This document shows positions 39,534-61,916 of a stretch of DNA of 64,000 bases, piece after piece. Source of the stretch: Oligoflexia bacterium (lineage in GTDB: Bacteria > Bdellovibrionota > Bacteriovoracia > Bacteriovoracales > Bacteriovoracaceae); the NCBI GenBank assembly GCA_015231955.1, contig JADGAN010000009.1:1-64000 (forward strand), written 5' to 3'. Each line of letters begins with the position of its first letter. Within the stretch, counting starts at the first letter, position 1. The notes under the pieces were generated by a model, which worked only from the letters and a program-made list of their open reading frames with translations, ran no database searches and was not told the origin of the DNA. The position numbers and the translations under genes were made by a program.

Positions 39534-39624
39534 GGAGAGATGCCGGAGTGGTCGATCGGGCCGGTTTCGAAAACCGGTGTAGTACTTTGTACTACCTAGG
39601 GTTCGAATCCCTATCTCTCCGCCA
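39534..39624 (+). tRNA. tRNA-Ser(CGA)
   Basis: A 91-base gene including encoded CCA. Acceptor GGAGAGA (39534-39540) pairs with TCTCTCC (39614-39620); the anticodon stem CCGGT/ACCGG frames the loop TTCGAAA, anticodon CGA; a long variable arm (GTAGTAC/GTACTAC) is typical of tRNA-Ser; T-arm GGGTTCGAATCCC. It is at the border where accessory DNA begins, a common integration site. Confidence 0.95.
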
Positions 39625-40580: not shown

Positions 40581-40858
40581 CTACAACTTAGATTGCATGT
40601 GTCTAGCATCTGTGACATCAGCACATCTAGCAGTCCTACCTAAAATATCCCCGCTCATAAATAGGGCCTCTCCTCTACATCCACCAGCACACTTTTTATT
40701 GGAGCTACAACTACCACACCCATCCATATCAGTGACTGGCCTTTTAAGTAGCTCTCTTAGGCTTAGGAATTGAGGTGATATTGACCAAAGATCTATCAAG
40801 GAATCAGTAACAACGTTTCCTATCTTAGTTTGCTCAAAGGTCATGGAGGTACAACACT
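40581..40858 (-). pseudogene. SPASM-domain fragment of a radical SAM enzyme
   Basis: The frame reads CCTSMTFEQTKIGNVVTDS then GCGSCSSNKKCAGGCRGEA and a final RCADV. This Cys spacing (CxxCxxxxxCxxxC...C) and IGNV.. DSL.D.W pattern are the C-terminal auxiliary Fe-S (SPASM) domain of peptide- or sugar-modifying radical SAM enzymes. The CxxxCxxC core domain is absent, and a stop lies just upstream in frame. So it is a 5'-truncated remnant, different from the intact radical SAM gene at 48768. Confidence 0.7.
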
Positions 40859-40898: not shown

Positions 40899-42092
40899 TT
40901 ATTTCAGGTCATTTACGATATCATCAACAATATTAACTACCCCGCTATTTTTAATTGAAAAATGATCTTGGGTCAGCTTTGATGGGGACGAATAAATAAA
41001 ATCAAAAACATCTTGTATTAACCGATCCTGTTCATCAGTAGAGTTTAAAAAGAATTCAAGACATTCACTATTCTTAGCAATCCCTTCCATTTCAGGCAAT
41101 CCCTCTGGAATTAATGGATATCCTCGATTGCTTTCCCAGTTGAAAAAATTAATTTGGTCTAAGTTGTCTTGATAGATTCGAAGCTGCAATGCCTGCGAAT
41201 AATTTTGAGGAGGTAGAAAGAAAACATCTTTTTCATAATAACACATTTCATAAAAGGTCGTGATCCCCGATCCAGCGATCACTTTATCTGCACTGGCCAT
41301 TAATGATAAAAATTCGAATTTATCAAATACATCAATAGTTAAATTTTTAAAACCTGAGTAATTGTTTTTTAAAAATTCAATAGTATTCCCGCCACCTGCT
41401 ACTATGAATTCGTGCTTAGAAAAATCTTTGTGGGTGACAAGAGAATTCATGAAACATTGGCAAAATTTTGATGTTTTACTATAGATATTATCGATGCCTC
41501 CAAATGTAATAAGATTTATAGGTCTTTTGTTTTCCGATAGTTCAGGTTGAGGGTTAGGCATATCTATGGGAATCAAGGGAGGCACTACCTTTGGATTGTT
41601 AACCTTTTCACTGAACTTTTCCAATGCCTCTTTAGTTCCAAAAAAATCTTGAATATAATACGTATCAACGGTATTAAAATCGGCCAGCAGTTTATCCCAC
41701 ATCCAAAACAAGGTATCGATATATATTTTTTTTATAGGGATATCTTGCAAATATTTAATCGAATTAGGATTTGTGTTTGAAATATAGAGTGAGCAATTTT
41801 CGATCAATGATCTGTGCTGAGACAACTCTTCGGTACTAGTGGTATTGCACTCTATCACCTCATCAAATAAATTACTTTTTTGACCTAATTGGAGAGAAGT
41901 TAGAGTGCCCAACAGGACAAATCTATATTGGGGATCAACCTTTTTTCTAAGTTCTTTTGCAAGTGACAATGTGGTTGATATAGGTCCAAAACAAAAAGGT
42001 TCAGCATCAAATATAATCGTCTTTTGTGTTTTATAATTATTTGGTAAAAAAAATATCATTTGTGAATCTTTAGGTTTAATCTCTTGAGTCAT
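40899..42092 (-). CDS. GT-B glycosyltransferase (MurG/GT28-like)
   Basis: 397 residues. The N-terminal half begins IIFDAEPFCFGPISTTLSLAKEL, a Rossmann-like acceptor domain; the C-terminal half has LITFGGIDNIY, EFIVAGGGNT, and MASADKVIAGSGITTFYEM with VFFLPP, the nucleotide-sugar loop of MurG-type enzymes. It probably transfers a sugar or joins a base to an activated sugar. It is the last intact gene of the biosynthetic operon and overlaps the gene before it by 17 bases. The substrate is not known. Confidence 0.7.
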   Translation of the reverse strand: MTQEIKPKDSQMIFFLPNNYKTQKTIIFDAEPFCFGPISTTLSLAKELRKKVDPQYRFVLLGTLTSLQLGQKSNLFDEVIECNTTSTEELSQHRSLIENCSLYISNTNPNSIKYLQDIPIKKIYIDTLFWMWDKLLADFNTVDTYYIQDFFGTKEALEKFSEKVNNPKVVPPLIPIDMPNPQPELSENKRPINLITFGGIDNIYSKTSKFCQCFMNSLVTHKDFSKHEFIVAGGGNTIEFLKNNYSGFKNLTIDVFDKFEFLSLMASADKVIAGSGITTFYEMCYYEKDVFFLPPQNYSQALQLRIYQDNLDQINFFNWESNRGYPLIPEGLPEMEGIAKNSECLEFFLNSTDEQDRLIQDVFDFIYSSPSKLTQDHFSIKNSGVVNIVDDIVNDLK

Positions 42093-42909
42093 TGGTGAGT
42101 TCCCGTGGTTGATGAAAAAATAAAAAATATTTCCGCTCCCATTGGAGATAAGAATTACTTGGGTTTTTTAAGTTATATTGTGGTGTAGGATGAAAGCTTT
42201 GTCCGATGCCTTCTTTTTGTAGCTTGTCTATTGATGAGTTAATTGATGTCTTCTGTAAAACTGTCCGTAAGGGAGCTGACCTGTTAGATCTGGTGTTAAA
42301 TCTATTTTCAGTTAAATTAATAACTCTATCGTGCGACAATCGTTCAAAAAGAGCACCGGATGAGGAAAAATTTTTGCTAGCAATTTTTTTTAATAATTCG
42401 AGTAAAGTATTATACTCATCTAAATCAGTATTGATATTTGAAAAAGCTATGGCACCACCACTGTTTATTAATTTCCGCCCATTAAATGAGATATAAGACC
42501 GATGTGCTTTTGAAATTTGTAATGAAAAATCATACTCACCATAGGACTGCGCCAGATCTAAAAAAATTTTAAATTGACTATTGTAATTGTAATATTTATT
42601 CAAAATAAGATCTACATTAGGATCAATATATCCTAGTGGATGTGCTAGCAGGAGCACGCATTGATGTTCATTGTATTGTTGAAGCAATTTCAATAGCTCT
42701 AATACATCTAGCTGACATGGAATAGAAGAAGATTCTGGAGAACAAACTGGATAAAAAAGAGGGATCCATCCAGCATTAATAACAGATTCACTCATCGCAT
42801 AGCAAATCCACTCAGGTAGCAAGCACACTCCATTACTTGAAATATTTTTCAGATCTTCAGTAAAAGCAAAGCGGACAGATGGATAATTCGTCTTCATTTT
42901 CTCTGTCAT
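42076..42909 (-). CDS. Short DegT/DnrJ-like PLP-fold protein
   Basis: 277 residues. A core resembles sugar aminotransferases: SVINAGWIPLFYPV, a VLLLAHPLGYIDPN segment, IFLDLAQSYGEYDF (family IED.AQ..G), and SYISFNGRKLINSGGAIAF, where Lys of GRKL is the candidate PLP Lys. It is about 100 residues shorter than family members and lacks the usual N-terminal substrate segment and much of the C-terminal domain. It could be inactive, a partner of the full-length aminotransferase at 45163, or act on a different carrier. Four-base overlap with the upstream gene. Confidence 0.5.
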   Translation of the reverse strand: MTEKMKTNYPSVRFAFTEDLKNISSNGVCLLPEWICYAMSESVINAGWIPLFYPVCSPESSSIPCQLDVLELLKLLQQYNEHQCVLLLAHPLGYIDPNVDLILNKYYNYNSQFKIFLDLAQSYGEYDFSLQISKAHRSYISFNGRKLINSGGAIAFSNINTDLDEYNTLLELLKKIASKNFSSSGALFERLSHDRVINLTENRFNTRSNRSAPLRTVLQKTSINSSIDKLQKEGIGQSFHPTPQYNLKNPSNSYLQWERKYFLFFHQPRELTNDSRD

Positions 42910-44342
42910 AATTTTGTAATCTCAAGGTGACATCTATCATTTGAGTGATTAGAAAATTGATCGTAGATAGCACTATTTCTCCCCCATAAATCAATGTAGA
43001 GACTTTTTCCAAGATCATCAGTTAGTCTTTCTTGCCATAAGGCCTCGACATGTTGCCTTAATGTATAGATTCCCAAGGAGTGCTTTTTACCTCTATCAGA
43101 GCAGCCCCATTTAACTGCAAACCATTTTCCTGACAGAGAAGTTCTCATCATTAATGAAAAGGCTTCGGGCCTATTATTGATGCTTGTAATAACAAGGGAA
43201 CAGTTTGCTGGGGAGTTATTGAAGAATGGTACATATTGAAGATCTTCTCTATTTAAGGATCTCATATTGCTCTTTTCTGTACTCTTCCAGCTATTGTCGT
43301 CAATTGCAAGTGCCTTTGAATAAAGTTCAAGTGCCCTCATGTCATTTGCAGAAGAGTATTCAGTTTTGAGATTAAGATCTTTCCAAGCTGAGCTATTTCT
43401 TGCAATAGTTCTCTTTAGTCGAGTAGGAAATGAAGCTACATATGACTCAAAACCAAGATTTTGTCTTATAATTATCTGAGGATTTTTCCAGCAATCAATG
43501 ATTCTTAGATTTATTTTTCCTTGTAATTCCAAATGTGTTATTTTTTTTAAAAACACACTTTCTTTGTTGATGTATTTGGCCCGTATTTTTATGCCAGCAC
43601 ATAGGTTGTTATTAAAGAATTCTATAAACGCATTTTCATATCCATCTAGGTTAAAATAAGAGTTTAGCAAGAGAGTATCTTTGCTTTCTTTGCTGAAAAG
43701 TATTTTTTCGTTTAAGCTGATTAGATCATCACTAGAGAATCTTGATTTAACACCGTCCGACCAGTTTTCTGTAAGAGTAATGTTGTCATGGTTCCTATCA
43801 GTAGCATATAGTAGATCCTCCAACATTATGCTGATATTATATTCAATAGATTTATCGGCGTTGATGATTTCAGATGTGCTGATTTTGTATGTTTGTAGCT
43901 TGAAATCATTATTTACTTCAAATAATCTCTCTTCTGGCAGAATATCAAAAGGATCCCTGGTGTTATTGCGTTGGATTTGATTAGATAGAGAGCATTGCAG
44001 CTGATAAAAACGAAAATAAGAGAATTTACTTGCTAAATTTTCTATCCACTTTAATTCGTCGTCATATACAAAAACACCATCGATAATAACAACATCAGGC
44101 GATTCTTCATTGAGTTTTATGGTAACGATATCGATTAGCTTTTTCGTAGTGCTATAAATTAAATCACGATCTAAATCTCTTGTGATGTTCAAAGAGGCCA
44201 AGACGTCATCCCAATGTACTGAGCTAACAGCAAGTGACTTATCTTGAAGTCCTTTTTTTAGCTCATTTGCAAGTGTAGTCTTCCCAACACCAGGAGGTCC
44301 ACTTATTGCAATTAAGCAAGAAGCTGATTTGACTGTTTCCAT
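42906..44342 (-). CDS. P-loop kinase fused to a GNAT/BioF2-like domain
   Basis: 478 residues. N-terminal domain (about 1-190): Walker A AISGPPGVGKTTLANEL, HWDD and VVIIDGVFVYDDE fit small-molecule kinases of the uridine-kinase/AAA_18 type. C-terminal domain (about 200-478): SWKDL, DDNSWKSTEKS and AFSLMMRTSLSGKWFAVKWG resemble BioF2/CelD-like GNAT acyltransferases. The combination is one I do not recall. In a natural-product operon it may phosphorylate and acylate an intermediate, or inactivate the end product. Overlaps both neighbours. Confidence 0.55.
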   Translation of the reverse strand: METVKSASCLIAISGPPGVGKTTLANELKKGLQDKSLAVSSVHWDDVLASLNITRDLDRDLIYSTTKKLIDIVTIKLNEESPDVVIIDGVFVYDDELKWIENLASKFSYFRFYQLQCSLSNQIQRNNTRDPFDILPEERLFEVNNDFKLQTYKISTSEIINADKSIEYNISIMLEDLLYATDRNHDNITLTENWSDGVKSRFSSDDLISLNEKILFSKESKDTLLLNSYFNLDGYENAFIEFFNNNLCAGIKIRAKYINKESVFLKKITHLELQGKINLRIIDCWKNPQIIIRQNLGFESYVASFPTRLKRTIARNSSAWKDLNLKTEYSSANDMRALELYSKALAIDDNSWKSTEKSNMRSLNREDLQYVPFFNNSPANCSLVITSINNRPEAFSLMMRTSLSGKWFAVKWGCSDRGKKHSLGIYTLRQHVEALWQERLTDDLGKSLYIDLWGRNSAIYDQFSNHSNDRCHLEITKL

Positions 44343-45169
44343 AGCTTCATAACCTCAGAAATAGATAGATCACCGAAGAGAGATCGGTAATAGTTGTTAA
44401 ATAATTCCTTGCTTTCATGGGAGGGAACAGCACGAGATTTTATTTGCAATTCTGTAGAGCGCAGTTCAATTTTATGATTGCGATTCCCCATGCACATTTC
44501 CTTTCCTTGTCTGTTGGGAGCAGGCAAGTAATGTACACTTTGTATGTTTGTGGCCATAGTCTTCTTAATTACAAGATTAATGGCCCTTTGCTGGGTTAAG
44601 TTTTCTACAAGTAAAACTTTTTTTTCTTCACCAATTATTTGTTGAAAAAACAATGGGTGATAAAGGGAAATGTTGCGGTAATAGACTTCAATCATTTGAT
44701 CTTTTTCAATTGTGCCATAGGGATAATCTGAAGATTTTTCTATCCCATAAAGACCATATAATTCAGATTCTTCAATGCAATTTTTCAATGATAAGCTAAT
44801 CTCATTCACTATGCTCTTAAATTGCCCATTTCCTGTATCAGCGATGATAATTTTAGGCAAGGAATGTCCTGTCTTTGTCAAAAGCGCATTGATACCATTT
44901 TTGAGGTATTCAATCATGGTTTTATAATCGGCCGACGTGGGGTCAAAAGACATTACATCCTTCATCAAATCAGACTCATAGGTTTGAATATATAACATCA
45001 GAGGTTTGTTGAAAATTGATGCTACCATAGCAGGGATCAGGCAATCGACTAAATCCTGCAGTTGTAAACGAAGTGGATTTCCCTTCGCAAAGCAGACACA
45101 AGGACCTCCCGCAATGAGATCAGCACTAATGGCATTTAAATTTCTTGCTGATAAGATAAGGTCTAGCAA
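44312..45169 (-). CDS. Class I aminoacyl-tRNA synthetase-like protein (TrpRS/TyrRS-like), signature motifs lost
   Basis: 285 residues. The layout resembles the TrpRS/TyrRS catalytic domain: a GNPLRLQLQDLVDCLIPAM stretch where HIGH-bearing segments lie, then KPLMLYIQTYESD, a central helical part, VLLVENLTQQRAINLVIKK where these enzymes have the (G)Q-D-Q-R region, and PAPNRQGKEMCMGNRNHKI where KMSKS and a following Asn lie. Both HIGH and KMSKS are degenerate and there is no anticodon-binding domain. In blasticidin S synthesis a TrpRS-type protein (BlsK, as I recall) joins leucine to the nucleoside. A similar ATP-dependent or tRNA-dependent aminoacyl transfer is my inference; homology rests on pattern only. 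Confidence 0.4.
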   Translation of the reverse strand: MLDLILSARNLNAISADLIAGGPCVCFAKGNPLRLQLQDLVDCLIPAMVASIFNKPLMLYIQTYESDLMKDVMSFDPTSADYKTMIEYLKNGINALLTKTGHSLPKIIIADTGNGQFKSIVNEISLSLKNCIEESELYGLYGIEKSSDYPYGTIEKDQMIEVYYRNISLYHPLFFQQIIGEEKKVLLVENLTQQRAINLVIKKTMATNIQSVHYLPAPNRQGKEMCMGNRNHKIELRSTELQIKSRAVPSHESKELFNNYYRSLFGDLSISEVMKLWKQSNQLLA

Positions 45170-46314
45170 AACAGACTCCTTAATTTTCTAGTAAGTAATG
45201 AAAAATCATCATCATCTAAGAGTATTGGTAGCGATATTCGCTCAGTGCAGATCTGATTGGAAACCGGACATATCTGTTGCTGAAGTGTCTTTAAACTCCA
45301 AGGGAATCCATCACCATATGGAGATAATCGCTGCTTGATTATAGGATTTTCCTGAAGGTTCCAATGAGTCCAATTTGAATGAGGAATTTTGTGTTGTCTG
45401 AAAACTTCAGCAACATTTATATCCTCAATCCATAAGGATACAAAATTATCAGAAGAAGCACGCTCAATGAAATGTACTTTCCCAGTTAGAATATTTTTTA
45501 TTTCGGTATATTTATCTTTTAGGCTTTTTTGAATATTAACTAGTTTTTCAAACTGAGCATTGATAACAGCAGAAGTTATATTGGTTGCCTTAGCGTTACC
45601 TCCAAAAAATGAATGTTCATTCCACAAAGGCAATCCATTATCTTTTCTTGAGCAACCATGGTCGGTATATTTTTTTGCATTATCAAATAAGTTCACGTCA
45701 TTGCCAATCAGCACGCCTCCTTCCCCTGAACTTAAAATCTTATTAGATTGAAAACTAAAACAACCTAGCTCTCCAAAAGTTCCTAGAAATTTATCCCCTG
45801 ATCTTGCTCCAAACGATTGAGAAGCATCTTCGATAAGGACAATGTCATTTTCTTTGCAGATATTGCTAATTTCCTGGATTTTACCTCCATGACCTTCAAG
45901 ATGTACAAAAATCACTGCTCTTGGTTTTGGATTGTTCTTTAAATAGTTACTGAGCATTATTGGGCATAGATGTCCTGATTTATCTACATCAATCATTATC
46001 GGAATTAATCCAACAGAGAGCACTGCATTTGCAGTGGCGATAAAGGAGATCCCTGGAATCAGCACAACATCCCCAATAACGGGTTTAGTTGCGACTATGG
46101 AAGCTTGAAGAGCAAAAGTAGCATTGGCCATAACCAATGAATGTGAGCATCCTAGGAAATTTGTTATCTTTCTTTCCAATTTGGCTGAGATGTTTTCTTC
46201 TTTTCCATACCGAAAAAGATCTCCAGAACTAACAATCTCCTTGGTAGCATCAATCTCACTAGCATCTATTTGAGATTGTCCTAAATAATATGGTAAGTGT
46301 TTAAACCCCTTCAT
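45163..46314 (-). CDS. DegT/DnrJ/EryC1/StrS-family PLP aminotransferase
   Basis: 383 residues, family length. FLGCSHSLVMANATFALQAS, VLIPGISFIATANAVL, IFVHLEGHGG, LIEDASQSFGA and the PLP Lys in FSFQSNKILSSGEGG are intact. These enzymes aminate keto-sugars or keto-amino acids in antibiotic, LPS and nucleoside pathways. The last residues (SRKDNGLPLWNEH, PILLDDDDF) are unremarkable. Starts within the end of the MFS gene, 14-base overlap. The likely substrate is a keto-sugar made by earlier enzymes of the operon. Confidence 0.92.
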   Translation of the reverse strand: MKGFKHLPYYLGQSQIDASEIDATKEIVSSGDLFRYGKEENISAKLERKITNFLGCSHSLVMANATFALQASIVATKPVIGDVVLIPGISFIATANAVLSVGLIPIMIDVDKSGHLCPIMLSNYLKNNPKPRAVIFVHLEGHGGKIQEISNICKENDIVLIEDASQSFGARSGDKFLGTFGELGCFSFQSNKILSSGEGGVLIGNDVNLFDNAKKYTDHGCSRKDNGLPLWNEHSFFGGNAKATNITSAVINAQFEKLVNIQKSLKDKYTEIKNILTGKVHFIERASSDNFVSLWIEDINVAEVFRQHKIPHSNWTHWNLQENPIIKQRLSPYGDGFPWSLKTLQQQICPVSNQICTERISLPILLDDDDFSLLTRKLRSLFC

Positions 46315-47536
46315 GTGCTTTGTCCTTTTTCTTAAAGAAAATCTTGGCCTCAGATAGCATGAATAGCAAAATACAGATCACACCAACGATTGCGAAACTA
46401 GTTCTCACCCCACTGCAAACTTGTTCATCACTAAAGAAGGAAAGATAAAACGATGTAATGGGAATTGCAAAACGACTAAGTAGTTGCGAAACAGAAAAAA
46501 GTCTACTGTGAATACCCTTGTGTTCGCATTCATATACTTTGTTCATGAATAGTATATTGAAAGCAATTAGTGTCGTGTTAAATAATGAGTATGAAATGAT
46601 TTTTGCAATAAGTCCTTGAAACGCAAAAAACGAGATCCCACTTAAAATAACCAAGATGATGATGCCTGAAAAATTATACTTTATAATCTCTGGAATGTGC
46701 TCTCTTATTCTCTGACCATTCAATAAGGTAGAGATTAAACCTGTACACAGATAAAATCCTGGTATTGCATATTGCCCCAAACTTCCGAGTTCACTGAAGA
46801 GGATGTAGGGTAGAGAAGACATAAGAAGGCTAATCGATAAAATCAAGAATGTCATTGAAAGAAAAAGATTCCTCCAGAATAGATCTTTCTTGATAAAATT
46901 AACAAAGGCCAGCGTGTTCATCTTTTTAGCTACTTGTGAGTTGTCTTGAGTATCTCGCCTGAAGTTAAATAAAAGATAAGCAATAATTGCATAAGGTAAA
47001 AACGAAAAGATATTCAACTGAGTAAGGAATAACATGTTTTTAGAATTCACTGAAAGAGTTCCTAAGGCCGGAGCAAATATTCCGATCAAGGTTGCTGCAA
47101 CTGTAATCTCCTGTGAGACTATTTTTGCGTCTTTGGTTTTGTTCTCTGGTAATTCATTAAATGCTATCCTTGACCAGGGGATTTCAAAGGCAAAGAGGAA
47201 TTGTAGTACAACAATGAATAGGCACTTTAGACCAAAGGACCAATCAAAATTAAAGGATAAAAACACGAGAATGGAAAAAACAATCTCAGCGCTAACTGCA
47301 TAAAACTTTAGCAACCAAATGTTTTTTGACTGATCGAGGATATGGGCCCAAAGGTATGTCCCTATGGCGGCAGCACTGAATATAATGGCCTGGATAATGA
47401 AAACCCATTTGCTCTCAATTTTACTCGCGAGTAAAAAATAGGGATAAGCAATAGCTAAAGCACAGGAACCAATCCCATTAATTACGAGAGCAAAACGAAA
47501 AAATACACTACTTTTGAAAATTTCAAATAACTTCAC
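46301..47536 (-). CDS. MFS-type transporter, 12 TM
   Basis: About 411 residues with roughly 12 hydrophobic segments (for example FFRFALVINGIGSCALAIAY, VFIIQAIIFSAAAIGTYLW, LFVISMTFL-type segments and FAIVGVICILLFMLSEA). It is a probable major facilitator exporter for the operon's product. GTG at 47536 gives a normal N-terminus (KLFEIFKSSVFFRF); a TTG at 47554 is alternative. It overlaps the ATP-grasp gene before it and the aminotransferase gene after it. Confidence 0.8.
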   Translation of the reverse strand: MKLFEIFKSSVFFRFALVINGIGSCALAIAYPYFLLASKIESKWVFIIQAIIFSAAAIGTYLWAHILDQSKNIWLLKFYAVSAEIVFSILVFLSFNFDWSFGLKCLFIVVLQFLFAFEIPWSRIAFNELPENKTKDAKIVSQEITVAATLIGIFAPALGTLSVNSKNMLFLTQLNIFSFLPYAIIAYLLFNFRRDTQDNSQVAKKMNTLAFVNFIKKDLFWRNLFLSMTFLILSISLLMSSLPYILFSELGSLGQYAIPGFYLCTGLISTLLNGQRIREHIPEIIKYNFSGIIILVILSGISFFAFQGLIAKIISYSLFNTTLIAFNILFMNKVYECEHKGIHSRLFSVSQLLSRFAIPITSFYLSFFSDEQVCSGVRTSFAIVGVICILLFMLSEAKIFFKKKDKAHEGV

Positions 47537-48764
47537 AATGAAACTCGCTGGCAAAATGATTTAACTTAGAAGCACAAGCATCTTCGCTATCCTCTTTCAA
47601 ATAGATGCGTCCTAACTCATGTAGGTAGCTATCAGATTCATACTCTTTTCCAATTTCAATATTTTGCTCTTTTTTTACAATTTTAGGATCGTTGAACTCA
47701 TCAATATTTGTACAACTAATCAATTTACCTTTTCCTGGAGTAAACGAGATCATTCCGGCCACATTGGATTTATATTGAGTGAGTGGCTGTGATCCACTTA
47801 ATGTTTCTCCATATATTTGCAAGGCATTCAAGTTTGTCGTCATGCTGTGAAATTCTATAAACGACATCCCAGGAGGACGAGCAGCTCCTTCGCAGAAATA
47901 TATTTGCTCATTTGGAGTTATAAAAAACTCCATGTGAGTAAGTCCGTCATCGTATTTAAATGCTTTGGCAATTTTTTGGTGGGCCTGTAATATCCTTTGA
48001 GAAATGGGATTAGTACGTTTTAAAGTGTGGGCCATAAAGTAAGCATTTTTGTTCTTTGCAATTGTTAGTAGATCTTGGACATAAACTCCGACTGAATAAA
48101 AGGCAGGTTCACCATCAGCTTGAGTAGTATCAATAAAATACAGATCTCCTGGAATAAATTCTTCAACTAAAAATTGATCCGATTCCAGTTTTTTTTCTTG
48201 CACATGCTGGTTGAGTACTTGGAAATTATCACAAACCTTTACGCCTTCAGAACCCCATAATTTTCTAGGCTTTAAAATATATTTATTAATTCCATTTAAC
48301 AAAGAAGGGTCATTCATGACATCGTGAAGAGCAAAAAATCTTGGTTGCAATACTCCGCTAGACGATGCAGTCTCTCTCATCAACAGTTTGTCGCGAAAAG
48401 CTTCTGCCTGTTTCTCTTTGATTCCTTCAAAATTAAAATAAGAATTAAGAAATCCTACTGTTTCAATGTTTTTTTCGCTCAAGCAAATAATTTGTTTACG
48501 GCAATCTGTTTTTTGCAAACGAATGATCTCTTCTATCTTTTCAATCCATGCTTTTGGATTGTCATAATCTTCTTCGACCATAATGGCCCAAGCTCCTGAC
48601 AAATCAGTAGTTTTTAGCCACTTTTCCTTTAACATCAAAATAACATTTTGCTTGTTCTTATAGAGTGTTTCTAAGAGGTATTTAGAATCGACGATATCTG
48701 CCATTAAAAAGATCAGGGTTTTCCCATCATTAAAATTTTTATCTTCTATAATAATCTTCTCCAT
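47523..48764 (-). CDS. ATP-grasp ligase
   Basis: 413 residues. ATP-grasp fold with YILKPRKLWGSEGVKV (nucleotide Lys and glycine loop), FLVEEFIPGDLYFIDT, and the metal-binding MEFFITPNEQIYFCEGAARPPG. This family (biotin-carboxylase-like carboxylate-amine ligases) forms amide or peptide bonds through acyl-phosphates. It is second after the radical SAM enzyme in the operon, three bases apart. It probably adds an amino acid to a core; the substrate is not known. Confidence 0.9.
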   Translation of the reverse strand: MEKIIIEDKNFNDGKTLIFLMADIVDSKYLLETLYKNKQNVILMLKEKWLKTTDLSGAWAIMVEEDYDNPKAWIEKIEEIIRLQKTDCRKQIICLSEKNIETVGFLNSYFNFEGIKEKQAEAFRDKLLMRETASSSGVLQPRFFALHDVMNDPSLLNGINKYILKPRKLWGSEGVKVCDNFQVLNQHVQEKKLESDQFLVEEFIPGDLYFIDTTQADGEPAFYSVGVYVQDLLTIAKNKNAYFMAHTLKRTNPISQRILQAHQKIAKAFKYDDGLTHMEFFITPNEQIYFCEGAARPPGMSFIEFHSMTTNLNALQIYGETLSGSQPLTQYKSNVAGMISFTPGKGKLISCTNIDEFNDPKIVKKEQNIEIGKEYESDSYLHELGRIYLKEDSEDACASKLNHFASEFHCEVI

Positions 48765-48767
48765 TTT

Positions 48768-49790
48768 CTATGCTAACTCCTGTTTAATACAATTGGCAGG
48801 ATCGCAACCTTTTACACAATGATGTCTTATCTCTGGAAACATTTCGCCCCTGAATTTCCGATATTTTTCTCCGTCCCAAATGTCTTTAATTCTATCTTCT
48901 ATGATATTTCCCATGATGTATTGCTGGTGATTTTCTCGGTACATAGTTGTATCACATGGATAAACATCTCCACTGACGGCATCAATGAACATGGTGTTGC
49001 TCGGTATGATACATGCTCTCTTGCTCGCAAGGTTATATTCGCCCTTGGAGGAAGAGATCCAGTTTTCTAAGCCGTTACCAAAAATCTTGTAAAATTTTCC
49101 AAGAAAAAAACCTTCTTTGATTAGTCCTTCTCTTAACAAAGATTCAATCTTTTTGTAAAAGATTTCAATTTGATCTATCGATACAAACAATTTGTTATAA
49201 TCTTTCATTGGAATTAGGTTTATACAATCTGCACCCAATGTCTTTGCAGTCAGGCACATTTTGTCTATGGTCTCAATGTTGTAAGAACTAACAACATGAT
49301 TAATGATTAAGATTATTTGAGGATGAGATGTTTTTATTCTTCTTATGGCCGAATGAAGGTTATCCTCGAGCCAAGGAATGCCTCTGCTTTTGGCATTAAG
49401 TGTTTCGTCAAAATGGTCAACTGAAAGATAAATTCGAGTAACGTTGTTATTAGCGATAAACTCAATATTTTCATCTGTGAGACAACGCCCATTTGTCGTG
49501 ATGGAAAAAGGAATTCTTCCTTTGCTGGCCAACAAGATTTGCTTAAACTCTTTGCTAAGAAAGCTTTCTCCTCCATGTAAATTAACATCGGTAAGAGGGA
49601 ACTCAATTAATTGTTCTACAAAATCTAGCACGGGTATTTTTTTATTGAATTGCTCTTTGCTTGTTTGCCACACATCACAGAATTCACATTTGGCATTACA
49701 AATATTATTCAATCGTATAAATACTTGCTCCAGCTGTGGAGACTGAGAGAGTTCTTCAGTTGTAAACCGTGACTGTATCTTGAAAATCAT
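48768..49790 (-). CDS. Radical SAM enzyme with C-terminal SPASM/twitch domain
   Basis: 340 residues. The [4Fe-4S]-SAM motif CNAKCEFC (about 33-40) is intact, followed by LHGGESFL and FSITTNGR strands. The C-terminal auxiliary domain has CIIPSNTMFIDAVSGDVYPC, IMGNIIEDRIKDIW and CVKGCDPANC, enough Cys for an extra cluster. In blasticidin-like pathways a radical SAM enzyme (BlsE) decarboxylates cytosylglucuronic acid; the same or another radical step on a sugar is possible here. The start overlaps the gene upstream by 35 bases. Confidence 0.92.
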   Translation of the reverse strand: MIFKIQSRFTTEELSQSPQLEQVFIRLNNICNAKCEFCDVWQTSKEQFNKKIPVLDFVEQLIEFPLTDVNLHGGESFLSKEFKQILLASKGRIPFSITTNGRCLTDENIEFIANNNVTRIYLSVDHFDETLNAKSRGIPWLEDNLHSAIRRIKTSHPQIILIINHVVSSYNIETIDKMCLTAKTLGADCINLIPMKDYNKLFVSIDQIEIFYKKIESLLREGLIKEGFFLGKFYKIFGNGLENWISSSKGEYNLASKRACIIPSNTMFIDAVSGDVYPCDTTMYRENHQQYIMGNIIEDRIKDIWDGEKYRKFRGEMFPEIRHHCVKGCDPANCIKQELA

Positions 49791-50307
49791 AAACCCTTCC
49801 TAAATTTTTAATTGTTACCTTGTCATCAATTTCTGCTATTGCGTTAATGACATCCAGTTGTAGCTGTGAATTCCATTGCTCTAACGAAGGAAGTGTTGAA
49901 TTAGATTTATAATAAATAATTTTGGCACTTGTCACGGTCCCCAGCCCTTCAACTAGGGGTGTTTTTACTCCTATATTGGTGTTAATCATAACGATGATAG
50001 GTTTTTTAAAAGCACTGGCCCAACCTAACTCCAAATGAACTCCATAGCTATGATCTGCAAAAGCGATGATTAGTTCACTCTCAATTACTCCTTGCATATC
50101 GAGTGATGTGCATTCAGCGCCTGACATCAACTCTTCTCCCCACTTTTCTCTTTCGATAGCACAAAAAACCTCATCAGCGATGGTATCTCTCAAGGATTTC
50201 AAAATATTTTGAATCGCATATTTTGCATCATCTATGATAAGATTGTTCTTATCTAGTAATGGTGTTATGGGGGTTGCTAAAAATACTTTTTTAAATTTTT
50301 TAATCAT
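49756..50307 (-). CDS. Nucleoside 2-deoxyribosyltransferase-like hydrolase (BlsM/MilB-type)
   Basis: 183 residues, first gene of the operon. KVFLATPITPLLD starts a Rossmann-like fold, then SELIIAFADHSYGVHLELGWASAFKKPIIVM, the conserved core of NDT-like proteins, whose Glu (HLELGWA) is the nucleophile candidate. In blasticidin and mildiomycin synthesis NDT-like BlsM and MilB hydrolyse CMP or hydroxymethyl-CMP to release the base. Another nucleotide substrate, or a SLOG-type signalling role, is possible. GGTAGGAATAATTT before ATG is a good ribosome site. Confidence 0.7.
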   Translation of the reverse strand: MIKKFKKVFLATPITPLLDKNNLIIDDAKYAIQNILKSLRDTIADEVFCAIEREKWGEELMSGAECTSLDMQGVIESELIIAFADHSYGVHLELGWASAFKKPIIVMINTNIGVKTPLVEGLGTVTSAKIIYYKSNSTLPSLEQWNSQLQLDVINAIAEIDDKVTIKNLGRVYDFQDTVTVYN

Positions 50308-50908: not shown

Positions 50909-52066
50909 ATGAATAAAACTTCTACGGTTCAAGTACCACAAGGGACTATTGGTCAGAATTATATAACACCTGAATCAAGTGAGTGGCATACTTTTGTTAT
51001 GGCATCAAGTAACTATATATCCCACTACTGGCCAGAGGCCTTAGAATCAAAAACAATAAATCAATTTGCTGCTGGATACGAAGTTGAATTAAAGAAAAGA
51101 ATCCTTCAAGGAGGGAGAATTCTACTACTGTGGACACTTAACAGGGAATTGTTAGGTTTTGCAAACGCTTGGGTTGAAGGACGTATGTCCTTGCGGACAT
51201 TAAATATTGCTGAATTCCACGTACTGCCGACAGCGCAAAAAAAGGGTCTTGGCAAATCGCTCTTTCAACTTCTGTGCGATGAAGGACGACGTCATGGTGC
51301 ACGTAACATAAGGGCCGAAGTTGATAAGCACATGCAAGCGAACGGTTTCTGGAAGCACATGGGATTAACTCTTGACCCCAGCAGTGAAGATAGAAATATT
51401 TTTACTGGTAAATTAGAACCCATCCGCATAATTTTCATGAGACATGGTAAAATTGTTATCCCTCAGAGGGCCTATGAAGTATGTATTGACCAAAATAAGC
51501 TGACTTTACAAGACGATAATGCCTTGATGTTAGAAAAGTTAGCAGGCAACTTTAATTTAGACCATATACCTGTATCCACATCGCCATATGCACGTACCAA
51601 GCAAACAGCGACAGCTTTATTCAGCAAAGCATCTTTTTCTTCCCTCCAGGATAATGATGGCCTTGTAGAGTTCTTTCCTGAGGAGCTTTTTGGCAAAACC
51701 TGGGAGGAGATCAGCAAAGAATATGTTGGTGACATTGAAGAATTAACTTTATATGGAGATAGAGATACTCTTTTTCAAAATTCAGAAAAAACTTCTACTG
51801 CAAAAAATCGTATTGAACAGGCATGTTTGGATCTCGTTCATACAGCAAGCTTAAGGCCACTCCGCATGGCCGTTTCTCATCAAGGTATTCATGCTCTCCT
51901 AATTTTAAAAATATTAGGCGGAAGTGAATCAAAACGTCATGCAATCCAGCTCAACTATCTCTGTGCTACTGTCTTACAATACAATGGCGAAAGACAGGAA
52001 TTTGAGTTAGAGGTTCTAAACCAGCCCATTGAAAACATCTTACAGCATCTATCAGTAAGGAATTGA
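50909..52066 (+). CDS. GNAT acetyltransferase fused to histidine phosphatase
   Basis: 385 residues. N-terminal GNAT domain (about 20-165): LLGFANAWVEGR, AEFHVLPTAQKKGLGKSLFQ (acetyl-CoA loop), MQANGFWKHMGLTL. C-terminal histidine phosphatase (about 172-375): the phospho-His motif is IFMRHGK, then STSPYARTKQTATAL and AVSHQGIHALL. Each domain's motifs are intact. The gene diverges from the biosynthetic operon, so it may acetylate the product or dephosphorylate a protected form, a frequent self-resistance design. No family with this pair is known to me. Confidence 0.8.
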   Translation: MNKTSTVQVPQGTIGQNYITPESSEWHTFVMASSNYISHYWPEALESKTINQFAAGYEVELKKRILQGGRILLLWTLNRELLGFANAWVEGRMSLRTLNIAEFHVLPTAQKKGLGKSLFQLLCDEGRRHGARNIRAEVDKHMQANGFWKHMGLTLDPSSEDRNIFTGKLEPIRIIFMRHGKIVIPQRAYEVCIDQNKLTLQDDNALMLEKLAGNFNLDHIPVSTSPYARTKQTATALFSKASFSSLQDNDGLVEFFPEELFGKTWEEISKEYVGDIEELTLYGDRDTLFQNSEKTSTAKNRIEQACLDLVHTASLRPLRMAVSHQGIHALLILKILGGSESKRHAIQLNYLCATVLQYNGERQEFELEVLNQPIENILQHLSVRN

Positions 52067-54557: not shown

Positions 54558-55223
54558 TCATTTCTTAAAAAAATTTTTTAAAGTTGCTATAGAGCTTTCA
54601 ACAGCTTCTCCTAAATTTCTGGATCCTTCCTGCAAACCTTCTTTTATGTTTTCTACTAATTTTATCGCTTCTTGATCGAATTTAGTTTGTTGCTTCTCTG
54701 GCTCTGACCATTTTTCAATCCCTTTTGTTAACGCATCCAATGCAAGTTGTGACACCTCTTCTGGTGTTCTTGAAACACGCGCTACATATATACCCAAAGA
54801 GATAGCAGCTAAAGATGCAGCGATAGCTGCTATATTCCCTATTGGGACAGGAGTTGAGCCACCAGCTATCGCGGCCCAAATAGTAGTCCATACAGCAACT
54901 TTTGTACCCAATATTGCCAACATCCCGCAAACAAGTCCAAACCCACCTGCAGCACTTATAAGAATTGCCAGGGCATTCTTGTAATGCTCTAAAGATTTCA
55001 TCTTTGATATTGATAGATGACCTTTGGCCATTTCCATAGAACCTTTTATTAATTTAGGTATCTCTCCGGTTTTCTCAAAAAAGAAATGTTCTACCCAATC
55101 ACATAGCTGGGTAATGTCTTGGTAAGACAATACTCCTTTAGTAGTATTAGTTTTTTCTGCGTAAAGAACATCAACCTTTGCTTTTGCTTCCATCCCAATG
55201 ACCAATTTTTCTTGATCGTTCAT
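54558..55223 (-). CDS. Hypothetical membrane protein, 221 aa
   Basis: Not recognised. Two or three hydrophobic segments in the middle (ALAILISAAGGFGLVCGMLA, VAVWTTIWAAIAGGS and IAAIAASLAAISLGIYVA) flank hydrophilic, Lys/Glu-rich ends predicted to be helical. It follows the 394-residue membrane protein after two bases, so the two are made together. Confidence 0.6.
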   Translation of the reverse strand: MNDQEKLVIGMEAKAKVDVLYAEKTNTTKGVLSYQDITQLCDWVEHFFFEKTGEIPKLIKGSMEMAKGHLSISKMKSLEHYKNALAILISAAGGFGLVCGMLAILGTKVAVWTTIWAAIAGGSTPVPIGNIAAIAASLAAISLGIYVARVSRTPEEVSQLALDALTKGIEKWSEPEKQQTKFDQEAIKLVENIKEGLQEGSRNLGEAVESSIATLKNFFKK

Positions 55224-55225
55224 TT

Positions 55226-56410
55226 CTACTCCCCTTTTTTAACGCGAGCAATTTTTGACGCCAATCCATATTTTGTTAAACTATCGTAAGCCTCTTCTAG
55301 TTTCTTATTCTGAAAATCTTCATATACTTTTATTGCCTCTTGCTCTTTATTTTGGAGAGCTTCCATGAACCTCATAGCTTCTTGTGGACCAACTCTATTT
55401 ATTAGTCCTTTAATTGCGAATGAGAATGCGTGTGGTGATGTTTGAGGGTAGTCCTTGCATAATTGATTACTCTTATCGCCTAAACTGTATGCAATATTCC
55501 CCATCGTATAAGCAAGCCCCACCGGAACAGAGGCCCAGCAGGATATAGCAGAAAGAAAACCAATGAGGGAGGAGATACCAACACTCTTCCCTATAGTAGC
55601 TACTTTCTGCGATGTCGTAGTGCTATTCCATTTAAAGGCAATTGCCAAGCTGCTAACCACGGTTCCTGCTACTGCACCACCAATTAGACCATCCAGAAGG
55701 TCACTGAGAGGGATTCCGAAAAGGAAGGGTTGGGTGTAATAATCCCAAGCTGAAACAACACCACTACTCACTTCAAGTGCACCAGCTGCTAGTAGCAGAG
55801 GATTTTCAGTGGCCACACCTCCTATGATCTCAAGAGTGCCTGCCCCCAGTGTAAATATCGCAGTCTGCATACCCCACGGAAGTTGTCCTGTGAGCGCAAA
55901 GAATAAGTCAAATCCACCGTTAGTAACAGAGACAACTCCGACAGCAATGTCGAATATATTCAGGTGTGCCCAAGGTAAAATCTTACTAGCATTTACTCCG
56001 ATAAATTTGGATAACAAATTGATAGTCGTATTAGGAATTATAGGAATACCCTGAACCGTAATAACGTCCAAACCTATATGCTTAAAGAAATCAACCATGG
56101 ATAGTTTGGATTTACTAAACACCGTGGTAGCATCGGAAATAAAGTGATGATTAACTTGACGATGATAGTACCCTCTATATGCGTCCATCCACTTATCAGT
56201 AGCATTCTCAGGAAGATGGTGAGTCCAGTCTGCAATAGAATCAAAAGGAATAATTTTTCGTATTAGGGTGCCTTGCCTCAAAGTATGCTGGGCGAAATCT
56301 ACAGGTAATGCTCCCGGCACCAAGATATTTGAAGAGGTACTTAACAAGCTATGCGTACCCTCGCTAGTACTTATTTCTAGATTTGTAAGAATATCCAATA
56401 AATTTTTCAT
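55226..56410 (-). CDS. Hypothetical large membrane protein, 394 aa
   Basis: Not recognised. A soluble N-terminal half (about 1-150, with WTHHLPENATDKWMD) precedes a glycine-rich membrane region (about 150-310: VTNGGFDLFFALTG, GAGTLEIIGGVAT, LLAAGALEVSSGVVSAWDYY, GGAVAGTVVSSLAIAF, SLIGFLSAISCW), then a charged helical tail. It could be a pore-former or an exclusion protein. It sits between an HTH regulator (1 bp gap) and the second membrane protein. Confidence 0.6.
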   Translation of the reverse strand: MKNLLDILTNLEISTSEGTHSLLSTSSNILVPGALPVDFAQHTLRQGTLIRKIIPFDSIADWTHHLPENATDKWMDAYRGYYHRQVNHHFISDATTVFSKSKLSMVDFFKHIGLDVITVQGIPIIPNTTINLLSKFIGVNASKILPWAHLNIFDIAVGVVSVTNGGFDLFFALTGQLPWGMQTAIFTLGAGTLEIIGGVATENPLLLAAGALEVSSGVVSAWDYYTQPFLFGIPLSDLLDGLIGGAVAGTVVSSLAIAFKWNSTTTSQKVATIGKSVGISSLIGFLSAISCWASVPVGLAYTMGNIAYSLGDKSNQLCKDYPQTSPHAFSFAIKGLINRVGPQEAMRFMEALQNKEQEAIKVYEDFQNKKLEEAYDSLTKYGLASKIARVKKGE

Positions 56411-56411
56411 A

Positions 56412-56738
56412 TTAAGACTCGCGGATAGGGCGGATTATCAGCTCGAAGCGGCCAGCACTTAAGGCATTTGCCACATCTTCTATTTTTTTCCTTACCTCTA
56501 GCTGACCATCTGACACTTCTGGGATACCGTAGATCATCTCATGCAGAGATATACTGAAGATGCGAGCACATCGTTTGTAGACGTTTATATCAGAGGGAGT
56601 GGCAGTACCACTTAACCATGAGGACACTGATCCCTCACTGACACCAAGGAGACTTGCAATCATTTTCCCCGACATCTCATGCTTCTTGAGCATAGTCTTC
56701 AACGTCTCCGAAAATTTTACAACATCCAAATCGCTCAT
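56412..56738 (-). CDS. XRE-family helix-turn-helix regulator
   Basis: About 108 residues. The HTH (KMIASLLGVSEGSVSSWLSG) is followed by a helical tail. Start at ATG 56738 has GGAG about eight bases upstream; an earlier ATG (56783) lacks one. First gene of a unit with two membrane proteins, so likely their regulator. A large palindrome lies about 150 bp upstream. Confidence 0.8.
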   Translation of the reverse strand: MSDLDVVKFSETLKTMLKKHEMSGKMIASLLGVSEGSVSSWLSGTATPSDINVYKRCARIFSISLHEMIYGIPEVSDGQLEVRKKIEDVANALSAGRFELIIRPIRES

Positions 56739-56889
56739 CTTGCATACTCCGATCTCTTGAGTATTATTTTTCTGTACGCTCATTTATCGGAATAGCATCC
56801 CTGCCTTTGTAGAGGTTATCGGTCAGCCAAAAACATTTAGCTATCTTAGAGCTAAAAAAAAATAAAACACTGTAAACATGGAGAGATAA

Positions 56890-56947
56890 GGACAAATATA
56901 GATTCAGACGGCCAAATTTATTCGGCCAACTGAATCGATATTTGTCC
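56890..56947. repeat. 58-bp near-perfect palindrome between two HTH genes
   Basis: GGACAAATAT (56890-56899), GATTCAG (56901-56907) and GGCC (56910-56913) have exact complements GGCC (56924-56927), CTGAATC (56930-56936) and ATATTTGTCC (56938-56947), giving about 21 paired bases of 24 per arm with a 10-base loop. There is no T-tract directly after on the minus strand. It may end transcription of the HTH gene at 57031, act as an operator, or be a recombination or origin site. Confidence 0.75.
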
Positions 56948-57030
56948 CTAAAAGCAAATACACTAGCGGGATGCGAGTTCAAAGAGGAGAGACTTACTCG
57001 CTACTGCAAATACTTGATGGGTACATTTGC

Positions 57031-57327
57031 TCATTTTAACAGTAGCGTAAGCTTATTAGAAAGGGCCTGGATCTCTTCTGCTATCGAGAGAGCATCAGTG
57101 TATGCACTCTCTGTTTTATTCATCAGCATAGGGATACTTACATCAAGAGCACTTGCAAGTAGTGGCAGAAGCTCCAAGAGCTTTGTCGTCGGTCTACCAT
57201 ACTCTATAGAGCGTAGACAGTGAGGACGGGTACCAATCATAGATGCTAACTGTGACCTTGTAAGCCTCTTACTTAAGCGGCGTTGCTCTACCCGCCTGCC
57301 AAGCTCTACAAGAGAGTCAATGCCCAT
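57031..57327 (-). CDS. XRE-family helix-turn-helix regulator
   Basis: About 98 residues. HTH: RLTRSQLASMIGTRPHCLRSIEYG; a helical tail follows. ATG at 57327 is preceded by GAGGTAACG. It lies downstream of the replication module on the same strand, separated by about 196 bp from the DUF2958 gene, and could control the module. Confidence 0.8.
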   Translation of the reverse strand: MGIDSLVELGRRVEQRRLSKRLTRSQLASMIGTRPHCLRSIEYGRPTTKLLELLPLLASALDVSIPMLMNKTESAYTDALSIAEEIQALSNKLTLLLK

Positions 57328-57523
57328 CACCGTTACCTCCGTTAGTATTGCTGCTACGACTACCATGGCATCTAATTCTTGCGTATTTATCCATGTGATC
57401 TCCTTGCTTAAAGGTTGATAAAAAATCTAAGTGAGTCCTAGCAGCACCAGTATGGACGACGCCACTACTGGAGTTACCAAGACCCACTTAGATTAATTGG
57501 AATGATTGTAAAGAATAAAGGTG

Positions 57524-57835
57524 CTAAGACCTACTTAGCTGTGCCCGAACTTGCGAGAGAGGTTTAGGTGTGAAGTAGAGGTCTCTCTCTACACCTAAGC
57601 CGTTGACTACCACATCCTCTAGCTCTTCTACAGCAAAGTACCCTAGTTCACTTTCAAATCCGCAGGTCAACCCAAAGCATAACCTGTCAACCGGATCATA
57701 CTCTAGTACAAACCATGTCCAGTTACTGCACGGATGAAAGAGTTTGGCGTGAACGATAGGATCTTTTGTATTCTCCGTTTGGTAGAGCATTGGAATCGAC
57801 TGTGCTATCTCTGGTGGAATTAGTTCCCTTGTCAT
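57524..57835 (-). CDS. DUF2958 protein
   Basis: About 103 residues. Pattern LIPPEIAQSIPMLYQTENTK then DPIVHAKLFHPCSNWTWFVL, FGLTCGFESELGYFAVEEL and ERDLYFTPKPLS, the DUF2958 signature often found on plasmids and integrative elements. Function not known. ATG at 57835 overlaps the previous gene's TGA (ATGA), supporting this start. Confidence 0.82.
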   Translation of the reverse strand: MTRELIPPEIAQSIPMLYQTENTKDPIVHAKLFHPCSNWTWFVLEYDPVDRLCFGLTCGFESELGYFAVEELEDVVVNGLGVERDLYFTPKPLSQVRAQLSRS

Positions 57836-58089
57836 CTGATACCGCCTTCTGTGGACTTCCATTTGCACCCATTGCGAAAGTTTCCGCAATACCACTGGTT
57901 GTCTTTGAATTTACTCTTGTAGATAGCACCGCCACAACTTGGACACTTCTCTGTCTGCGTCTGCGGCGATACTTTGCTTGCAAGAATGGACTTATCTCCT
58001 TCTCCACTCTTAAATTGAGAGATCCATCCTGTAATGCGATCACCTACCTCCTCTAGCGGGCACACAAGTATCAAAAATTTATTTCTCAT
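57832..58089 (-). CDS. Zinc-ribbon protein, 85 aa
   Basis: The C-terminal half holds CPSCGG and a second Cys pair CGN..NGC followed by KWKS, resembling topoisomerase-type zinc fingers that bind single-stranded DNA. The N-terminal 45 residues are not recognised. Coupled on both sides: four-base overlaps with the nuclease gene and the DUF2958 gene. Confidence 0.75.
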   Translation of the reverse strand: MRNKFLILVCPLEEVGDRITGWISQFKSGEGDKSILASKVSPQTQTEKCPSCGGAIYKSKFKDNQWYCGNFRNGCKWKSTEGGIR

Positions 58090-59021
58090 TTTGATGCTCC
58101 TACACTGACCAAGCAGTCATCTGTCGTTTCCATTACTAAACTCTTCTCTAACTCTATTTCAACTACATCAAAGTATTCAGGATGGCAGATAGGCAGGTAC
58201 TCGCAGTCAGAAAAGTATCGGCCCCGACAAGCAGTGTAGTCGGGCTCAAACTTGTTCTCTCTGATCTTGCGAGCCCCCTCAGCGATCATCTTATACATCT
58301 GCACGATCTCTTTAAACGTAGGAGGGTATAGGAGTTGCTGGAAGGTTGGCGTCTTAGTTTTCGTCAAATTATAAATTCCAACCGCTTTCGGCAACGCCTT
58401 ATGCTTGATGTAGTAGAGATAGCTGTAGAAGAGAAGCTGGAACAGATGACCGGATAGCGATGATAACTTCATGGAACTTGTTTTCAAGTCCATGATGATC
58501 TTATCATCACCAGGGCCATCCTGCTTACTCAGTACCAAGCGGTTATCATCGTAGGAAGTAGAGAGAGCGACGCTTTCTTGCAAGTCGAGTTGGCCACTGA
58601 CTATCACGGAAGGATCTTTCTCTCCGGTCTCTGGATTTTCCAACTCGACAATCATCTTCTCCTCAATACCTGTGGGTCGAAAGGTATTCTGAACGAAGGT
58701 GTCGTACATGCGAAGAGATTTAGCGATAAGAGCATCCTGCTCCTCATCGCACTCGTAGGTGAATTGGCCCGAAGTGGGATTAGCATACCTCGTTGTTATC
58801 TCTTGCTTGAGGTAATCAGTAACCGCATCCCTACCCAACCCCATCAAGAGATGCTTCTCTAGCAGTGCTGTGTGGATGGTATTGCCGAACCAGAGGCATA
58901 GAGGAAGGGTCTTCTTCATGAATTGCTTATTGTACCTAAAGTGATACTTTAAAGGGCATTCCAGAAAAAGAGACAAAGATGTCCCCGATCCTCCAGAGGA
59001 GGATAAAAAGATTTTTTTCAT
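58086..59021 (-). CDS. RecB/Cas4-like PD-(D/E)XK nuclease with Fe-S cluster
   Basis: 311 residues. LFLECPLKYHFRY provides the first Cys; the nuclease core is VSGQLDLQE and IIMDLKTSS then QLLFYSYLYY; the C-terminal C..YFSDCEYLPIC supplies three more Cys, so a 4Fe-4S cluster is likely, as in AddB and Cas4. It probably resects DNA in replication or recombination of the element. AAGGA precedes ATG at 59021. No CRISPR array or cas1 is seen. Confidence 0.88.
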   Translation of the reverse strand: MKKIFLSSSGGSGTSLSLFLECPLKYHFRYNKQFMKKTLPLCLWFGNTIHTALLEKHLLMGLGRDAVTDYLKQEITTRYANPTSGQFTYECDEEQDALIAKSLRMYDTFVQNTFRPTGIEEKMIVELENPETGEKDPSVIVSGQLDLQESVALSTSYDDNRLVLSKQDGPGDDKIIMDLKTSSMKLSSLSGHLFQLLFYSYLYYIKHKALPKAVGIYNLTKTKTPTFQQLLYPPTFKEIVQMYKMIAEGARKIRENKFEPDYTACRGRYFSDCEYLPICHPEYFDVVEIELEKSLVMETTDDCLVSVGASK

Positions 59022-59037
59022 TTTAAAATTCCTTTTT

Positions 59038-59160
59038 TTAGATGCTAAAGATTGTTCCCAATCCAATCAGTTTTAGAGAAGTTAAAACTCTGTAGAAAAA
59101 GAAGTAGATGCGAGCAGCGAGTGCCGGAAGAATGAAATTGAACAGTAAATTAACCATCAT
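59038..59160 (-). CDS. Small hydrophobic protein, 40 aa
   Basis: MMVNLLFNFILPALAARIYF then FFYRVLTSLKLIGLG and a stop at 59038. Preceded by AAAGGAGATTT, a consensus ribosome site. Mostly hydrophobic with a few Arg and Lys, so a one-pass membrane peptide is likely. Starts 16 bases downstream of the 32-aa ORF and ends 16 bases before the nuclease start, consistent with one transcript. Unknown function; holin- or toxin-like peptides have this size. Confidence 0.6.
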   Translation of the reverse strand: MMVNLLFNFILPALAARIYFFFYRVLTSLKLIGLGTIFSI

Positions 59161-59176
59161 AAATCTCCTTTGAAAA

Positions 59177-59275: not shown

Positions 59276-59302
59276 AAAATCCCCCTTGTTAGAGTAAATT
59301 TG

Positions 59303-59389: not shown

Positions 59390-59406
59390 TAAAAACCTCC
59401 TGCAAG

Positions 59407-59457: not shown

Positions 59458-59511
59458 CTTATACGTGAAAATTTGAGGGTTTTTGAAATCTAGCGGGGCA
59501 CAGTGAATTAT

Positions 59512-61914: not shown

Positions 61915-61916
61915 GC

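Follow-up and report, generated by a model that had tools for sequence, protein, structure and literature searches.

A nine-gene operon on the minus strand

The stretch of DNA analysed here, 64,000 nucleotides of contig JADGAN010000009.1 from an Oligoflexia bacterium of the phylum Bdellovibrionota (hereafter the window), carries on its minus strand, at positions 40899-50307, a block of nine open reading frames (ORFs) that we call genes A to I in their order of transcription. All nine are present as stated in a preliminary description of the locus, which had likened them to a blasticidin-type pathway for a peptidyl nucleoside antibiotic. Genes A and E can be placed at the level of the subfamily, while genes I, B, C, F and the N-terminal half of G are significantly similar to proteins from gene clusters that work through cytosylglucuronate (CGA). 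Judged from these sequences, the operon quite probably serves to make a CGA-type peptidyl (aminoacylated) cytosine nucleoside by a divergent pathway.

As had been described, neighbouring genes either overlap or abut: there are seven overlaps of 4-35 bp (A/B 35, C/D 32, D/E 14, E/F 7, F/G 31, G/H 4 and H/I 17 bp) and a single gap, of 3 bp, between B and C. Because of this arrangement the nine ORFs almost certainly form one operon and are translationally coupled. The claim of a shared promoter fared less clearly. A sigma-70-like site scoring 10/12 was found at 50419-50390, 83 bp upstream of gene A, but the region contains 25 sites of this kind, fewer than the 40 of its shuffles, so that this one is only compatible with being the operon promoter.

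Gene A and the loci of its relatives

Gene A (49756..50307) encodes a protein of 183 amino acids which gives a weak match to nucleoside deoxyribosyltransferases (NDT) in Pfam. Its nearest chains in the PDB are the cytidine monophosphate (CMP) N-glycosidase 4jen (2.8e-17), BlsM (5vto, 2.4e-16) and MilB (about 1e-11), with deoxynucleoside hydrolases ranking behind at 0.07. The earlier NDT-like assignment is thus sharpened to the CMP N-glycosidase-type hydrolases of the BlsM/MilB/BcmB family. In MilB, E103 is the nucleophile, E62, D78, S97 and G99 are ligand residues and Arg23 selects hydroxymethyl-CMP (hmCMP) (PMC4081090). On alignment the first five are all kept in gene A, as E93, E54, D70, S87 and G89 respectively, whereas R23 is replaced by T15, so that the Arg or Lys marking the hmCMP-specific MilB subgroup is missing. 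MilB homologues without Arg or Lys at position 23 are those that are not linked to a thymidylate-synthase-like gene (PMC4081090). Since the hmCMP gate R23 is T15, the substrate of gene A is expected to be CMP and its product cytosine instead of hydroxymethylcytosine.

Scanning the NDT alignment against 84,980 species genomes yielded 77 loci. The best of these, L009, belongs to a metagenome-assembled genome (MAG) labelled Proteobacteria, its NDT being 54% identical to gene A; G233, a genome from the same phylum as the window, contains this locus too, with identical proteins. There, at L009:9992-19210, genes running in one direction encode a CMP hydrolase, an arginine 2,3-aminomutase (555 bits, cut-off 600), a BlsH-like DegT protein, a fusion of an ATP-grasp protein with a glycosyltransferase (GT), a BlsE (337 bits, cut-off 400), a 610-residue protein without assignment and an exporter-like protein. 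By sequence this looks like a nearly canonical blasticidin-type set, apparently outside the Actinomycetota. Strong matches to both the NDT and the GT profiles occur in 2 of 369 genomes of the phylum, namely the window's and G233, a figure that bears on rarity and co-occurrence and not on detection, the profiles including G233's own sequences; each search gave one further weak match, in different genomes.

Two further loci, L075 in Streptomyces griseofuscus DSM 40191 and L079 in Streptomyces natalensis ATCC 27448, combine a CGA synthase with an NDT, a radical S-adenosylmethionine (SAM) protein, a DegT protein, a relative of gene F and a kinase. The CGA synthase of L075 lies above the model cut-off (TIGR04467, 393 bits against 300). 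Shared between L075:410-14112 and the corresponding part of L079 are the CGA synthase, CMP hydrolase, kinase, histidine phosphatase, GNAT protein and a protein resembling aminoacyl-tRNA synthetases (aaRS) and cyclodipeptide synthases (CDPS). Neither cluster could be tied to a named product.

Two other loci may be recorded. In an Elusimicrobia MAG (L010:24-5219), a CMP-hydrolase-like protein sharing 49% identity with gene A lies near ATP-grasp and transporter-like proteins, the contig ending just beyond the hydrolase. Genome G083 (L101) has a lone NDT with no neighbours of the operon kind.

Glycosyltransferase, radical SAM protein, aminotransferase and ligase

The assignment of gene I (40899..42092) as a GT-B glycosyltransferase was borne out, weakly in Pfam and specifically in NCBIfam, where its top match is the CGA synthase model TIGR04467 (2.8e-8). 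Used alone as query, it retrieves the GT portion of the fusion protein in L009 at 1.7e-22 (8.8e-15 by profile), a portion that itself matches CGA synthase at 1.4e-11. In hhalign comparison gene I is similar to the BlsD profile over most of its length (8.3e-6, residues 22-321) and gives only noise with non-GT families; a CMP hydrolase is encoded in the same operon. Throughout the family-by-family hhalign matrix, significant cells were found only between like members and the remainder were noise. On this profile evidence the protein is a putative divergent member of the CGA-synthase group of GTs, with some 17% identity to true CGA synthases. No solved structure was matched by a GT profile built from a four-sequence alignment, and a plasmid collection held no relatives of genes I, F or G. 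Three nucleotide-sugar dehydrogenases score above cut-off in the genome, matches which do not specify the substrate; their presence makes a supply of uridine diphosphate (UDP)-glucuronate plausible.

Gene B (48768..49790) encodes a radical SAM/SPASM protein with the motif CNAKCEFC, both domains being recognised in Pfam (1.9e-16 and 1e-12, respectively). In the PDB it matches BtrN (3e-9, mainly over the C-terminal cluster domain), SkfB and cytosylglucuronate decarboxylase (7vob/7voc, 4e-7), the last aligning over residues 21-289 with the CxxxCxxC motif kept. Profile comparison places the radical SAM proteins of L075 and L079 closest (3e-18), followed by BlsE (5.5e-13), and a tree also groups gene B with the L075/L079 proteins (support 85/83), on branches that are saturated and with an unsettled bootstrap. 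BlsE converts CGA to cytosylarabinopyranose (PMC3715490). This BlsE/MilG-like protein probably modifies a cytosyl-sugar, by decarboxylation or dehydrogenation.

The DegT-family, pyridoxal phosphate (PLP)-dependent aminotransferase encoded by gene E (45163..46314) matches DegT in Pfam at 3.1e-55 and the BlsH profile at 1.8e-47. A maximum-likelihood tree places it as the sister of the BlsH clade (100/96) and separates it from the remaining DegT proteins sampled in the same genome as well as from that of the S. griseofuscus cluster. The outgroups in this tree, which includes long branches, were drawn from L075/L079, a single plasmid locus and the genome that carries the window. BlsH acts on a CGA-derived sugar. 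Gene C (47523..48764) is a BlsI-like ATP-grasp ligase: it matches ATP-grasp_4 in Pfam (7.5e-10), the BlsI profile (4.5e-5, hhalign) and the ATP-grasp portion of the fusion protein in L009 (1.5e-4), and no cluster family besides these last two. The joining of ATP-grasp and GT in that protein provides independent support for C- and I-type proteins working in a common pathway. For B, C and E, the Pfam matches agree with the families originally assigned.

Genes F, G, H and D

Gene F (44312..45169, TTG start) has relatives, among the loci fetched, only in L075 and L079 (blastp to the L075 protein, 1.5e-9), and the family conserves YYRxNISxY-like, VENxxQ and PAP[ND] stretches. Among 247 Streptomyces genomes the sole strong match is in that of L075 itself, with one more that is short and weak. 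A model built from three sequences, of low confidence (pTM 0.56), has as its nearest PDB folds TyrRS, pantothenate synthetase (PanC) and cyclodipeptide synthase, at E about 1e-2. According to this low-confidence model gene F may adopt a class Ic aaRS-like Rossmann fold, and it is from the model, with TyrRS among its best folds, and from no other source that the original aaRS-like label draws support. Identification as a true cyclodipeptide synthase was rejected, the fold neighbours reaching only E about 1e-2 with a weak model. Gene F presumably carries out tRNA-dependent or adenylate-type acyl transfer. Since MilH of the mildiomycin pathway has been called a putative tRNA-dependent aminoacyltransferase (PMC11784345), a tRNA-dependent step would not be strange in such a pathway; that gene F performs one is something we infer.

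Gene G (42906..44342) comprises two halves, the N-terminal one being a P-loop kinase for which the nearest named NCBIfam model is L-seryl-tRNA(Sec) kinase (PSTK, 5e-8). This half also matches the stand-alone kinase of L075 (profile 1e-4), the same kinase being present in both Streptomyces clusters. The likeness of the C-terminal half to the GNAT/Fem-like protein of L075 is by eye only, with no profile match, and was not accepted. An AlphaFold model of gene G made without an alignment gave a pLDDT of 34. Gene H (42076..42909) encodes an orphan protein of 277 amino acids, and a search of 358 genomes from the phylum found no relative of it. Gene D (46301..47554, TTG start) is a polytopic membrane protein with ten hydrophobic segments and is presumed to be an exporter; a correspondence with BlsJ was considered and no profile match was found.

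Surroundings of the operon

The G+C content is 33-36% across the operon block and mostly 41-47% over the 15 kb that immediately precede a tRNA-Ser gene; its lower value in the block suggests horizontal acquisition. The locus had also been described as a tRNA-linked island. A tRNA-Ser(CGA) does lie at 39534-39624, at a distance of 1.3 kb, but its 3' end was not found again anywhere in the genome, so that integration there is not supported and the tRNA was rejected as an attachment site.

On the upstream side, the divergent gene adjoining the operon (50909-52066, plus strand) codes for a fusion protein of GNAT acetyltransferase and histidine phosphatase. The L075 cluster carries GNAT and histidine phosphatase as separate genes, and the two phosphatases do not match one another by profile comparison. 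By analogy, a role of the fusion protein in self-resistance or dephosphorylation is possible. Farther along the same side, 54558-63983 holds phage- or element-like genes, including a family A DNA polymerase, a PD-(D/E)XK nuclease and helix-turn-helix-like ORFs. At the other end, 54 bp past gene I, an 87-residue ORF (40581-40844, minus strand) corresponds solely to the C-terminal SPASM region of radical SAM proteins and is probably what is left of another radical SAM gene.

Comparison with known pathways

With blasticidin S, for which the annotated bls genes of Kitasatospora sp. NBC_00039 (L086) served as reference, and with L009, the operon has in common a CMP hydrolase, a CGA-synthase-like GT, a BlsE-like radical SAM protein, a BlsH-type aminotransferase, a BlsI-like ATP-grasp protein and a membrane protein presumed to be an exporter. 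It differs from both in adding gene F, the kinase-bearing gene G and the orphan H, and in the strong divergence of its GT and radical SAM proteins. The resemblance to L075 and L079 is of another kind, comprising the NDT, the CGA synthase, the radical SAM proteins closest to gene B, a DegT protein, the homologue of F and the kinase related to G. The DegT proteins of these two clusters are not of the BlsH type, unlike gene E, and L075 additionally has a thymidylate-synthase-like gene, a methyltransferase, a PLP decarboxylase, a GNAT protein and a histidine phosphatase. Mildiomycin is alike in the kinds of step described, namely MilB (CMP/hmCMP hydrolase), MilC (CGA synthase), MilG (putative decarboxylase), MilD (DegT) and MilH (putative tRNA-dependent aminoacyltransferase) (PMC11784345, PMC3715490), MilB being the sole mil sequence compared. 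A mildiomycin type that uses hydroxymethylcytosine was rejected in view of the missing R23 in gene A.

Several results weigh against a CGA-type pathway. The operon has no counterparts of BlsG, BlsF, BlsK and BlsL. Absence of BlsG, the arginine 2,3-aminomutase, led us to reject blasticidin S in the strict sense; elsewhere in the genome two KamA-family matches reach 183 and 147 bits, the cut-off being 600. Among the nine genes, Pfam and NCBIfam revealed no homologue of thymidylate synthase of the MilA type, the rest of the genome not having been searched. Both central enzymes fall far below the cut-offs of their models: gene I scores 33.3 bits with TIGR04467, where equivalog membership requires 300, and gene B scores 38.7 bits (8.1e-10) with TIGR04466, the BlsE decarboxylase model, where 400 is required, and a higher 85 bits with TIGR04317, the model for a tungsten oxidoreductase maturase. 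Three proteins also yielded less than the preliminary description had proposed for them. No sequence search matched the C-terminal half of gene G to any family, so that of a supposed kinase-GNAT protein only the kinase is retained. For gene D no family was matched, that of the major facilitator superfamily (MFS) included, leaving only the hydrophobic segments of the supposed MFS transporter. Gene H found no family in Pfam, NCBIfam or profile comparison, and its description as a short DegT-like protein was abandoned since neither DegT set gave a profile match.

Set against these points are the matches of the NDT, GT and radical SAM proteins to blasticidin-type enzymes, in which the preliminary description had sought its support: 2e-16 to 3e-17 for the NDT, 2.8e-8 for the GT, and 4e-7, together with 5.5e-13 against the BlsE profile, for the radical SAM protein. 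To that extent the blasticidin-type interpretation holds.

Alternative interpretations

The product might instead be a different cytosine nucleoside, gene I drawing on another donor (e.g. UDP-hexosamine or another UDP-uronate) and gene B acting as a BtrN-like radical SAM dehydrogenase that makes a ketone for the aminotransferase. BtrN is indeed the best-scoring solved relative of gene B, the decarboxylase model reaching only 39 bits, the identity of gene I to true CGA synthases is low, and the several nucleotide-sugar dehydrogenases in the genome could supply other uronates. Yet the match to BtrN is mainly confined to the cluster domain, while gene B aligns with the decarboxylase structures over most of its length and has its closest relatives in CGA-synthase loci, and gene E groups with BlsH, whose own substrate derives from CGA. 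We consider this alternative unlikely.

An ordinary operon for modification of cell-surface polysaccharide or lipopolysaccharide (LPS) would account for the DegT, GT-B and polytopic membrane proteins, all common in such clusters, and gene E scores 157 bits with LegC-type aminotransferases (NCBIfam). A CMP N-glycosidase with a complete active site has, however, no known role there, gene E falls with BlsH rather than with the DegT proteins sampled from the same genome, and no polymerase or flippase was matched. This possibility, highly improbable in our estimation, was rejected on the CMP hydrolase and the placement of E; neither an LPS cluster nor an unrelated family for the NDT, GT or aaRS-like protein, which the preliminary description had named as grounds for refutation, was found. 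The poorest candidate is an anti-phage operon based on nucleotide chemistry, in which gene B would be a viperin-like enzyme associated with a kinase, in an island beside phage-like genes. Gene B matches the PADLOC profile 'viperins associated with kinases' (2.9e-19), there is a kinase within the operon, and the family A DNA polymerase and PD-(D/E)XK nuclease lie nearby. Its score with the prokaryotic viperin model of NCBIfam (62.7 bits, cut-off 180) is nevertheless matched by that of the L009 BlsE (63.2 bits), indicating similarity only at the level of the superfamily; moreover, it has a SPASM domain, and the rest of the operon matches no defence model specifically. Viperin-type defence was rejected on that score and appears to us extremely improbable.

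A predicted pathway and its significance

For a CGA-type pathway, several independent matches support the core steps, namely cytosine release from CMP, transfer to a UDP-uronate to give a cytosyl-sugar, radical modification, transamination and ligation of amino acids; this support does not extend to the details of the substrates. Gene A would cleave CMP to cytosine and ribose-5-phosphate, and gene I would join cytosine to the sugar of UDP-glucuronate, yielding CGA or a closely related compound. Radical chemistry by gene B on the sugar, which might be decarboxylated in the manner of BlsE/MilG or oxidised in that of BtrN, would lead to a keto sugar, to which gene E would add an amino group as BlsH does. 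One or more amino acids would then be attached to the amine by gene C and probably also by gene F, in a tRNA- or adenylate-dependent manner. The kinase half of gene G may phosphorylate a pathway intermediate or the end product, perhaps as a form of self-protection, and gene D would export the product. Predicted throughout are the order in which the steps occur, the identity of the sugar and of the amino acid, and likewise export, resistance and bioactivity. More tentatively, and with considerable doubt, the product might represent a new class of cytosine-nucleoside antibiotic, in which the ATP-grasp protein C and the aaRS/CDPS-like protein F both add amino acids and G and H provide modifications unseen in blasticidin, mildiomycin and gougerotin.

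To our knowledge, CGA-type peptidyl nucleosides (blasticidin S, mildiomycin and arginomycin) have been characterised only from Streptomyces and close relatives, and within the limited open-access literature we found no report linking nucleoside antibiotics to Bdellovibrio. The known compounds of the class, such as blasticidin and mildiomycin, target the peptidyl transferase centre of the ribosome, which would be the likely target of the predicted product too. If the prediction is right, a ribosome-targeting class of antibiotics would extend to producers in another phylum, represented by two genomes, one with a nearly canonical and the other with a strongly remodelled pathway. The operon would also offer natural variants of CGA synthase and of the radical SAM enzyme with which to probe the determinants of their chemistry, and would point to an uncharacterised aaRS/CDPS-like family, that of gene F, tied to CGA chemistry in both lineages.

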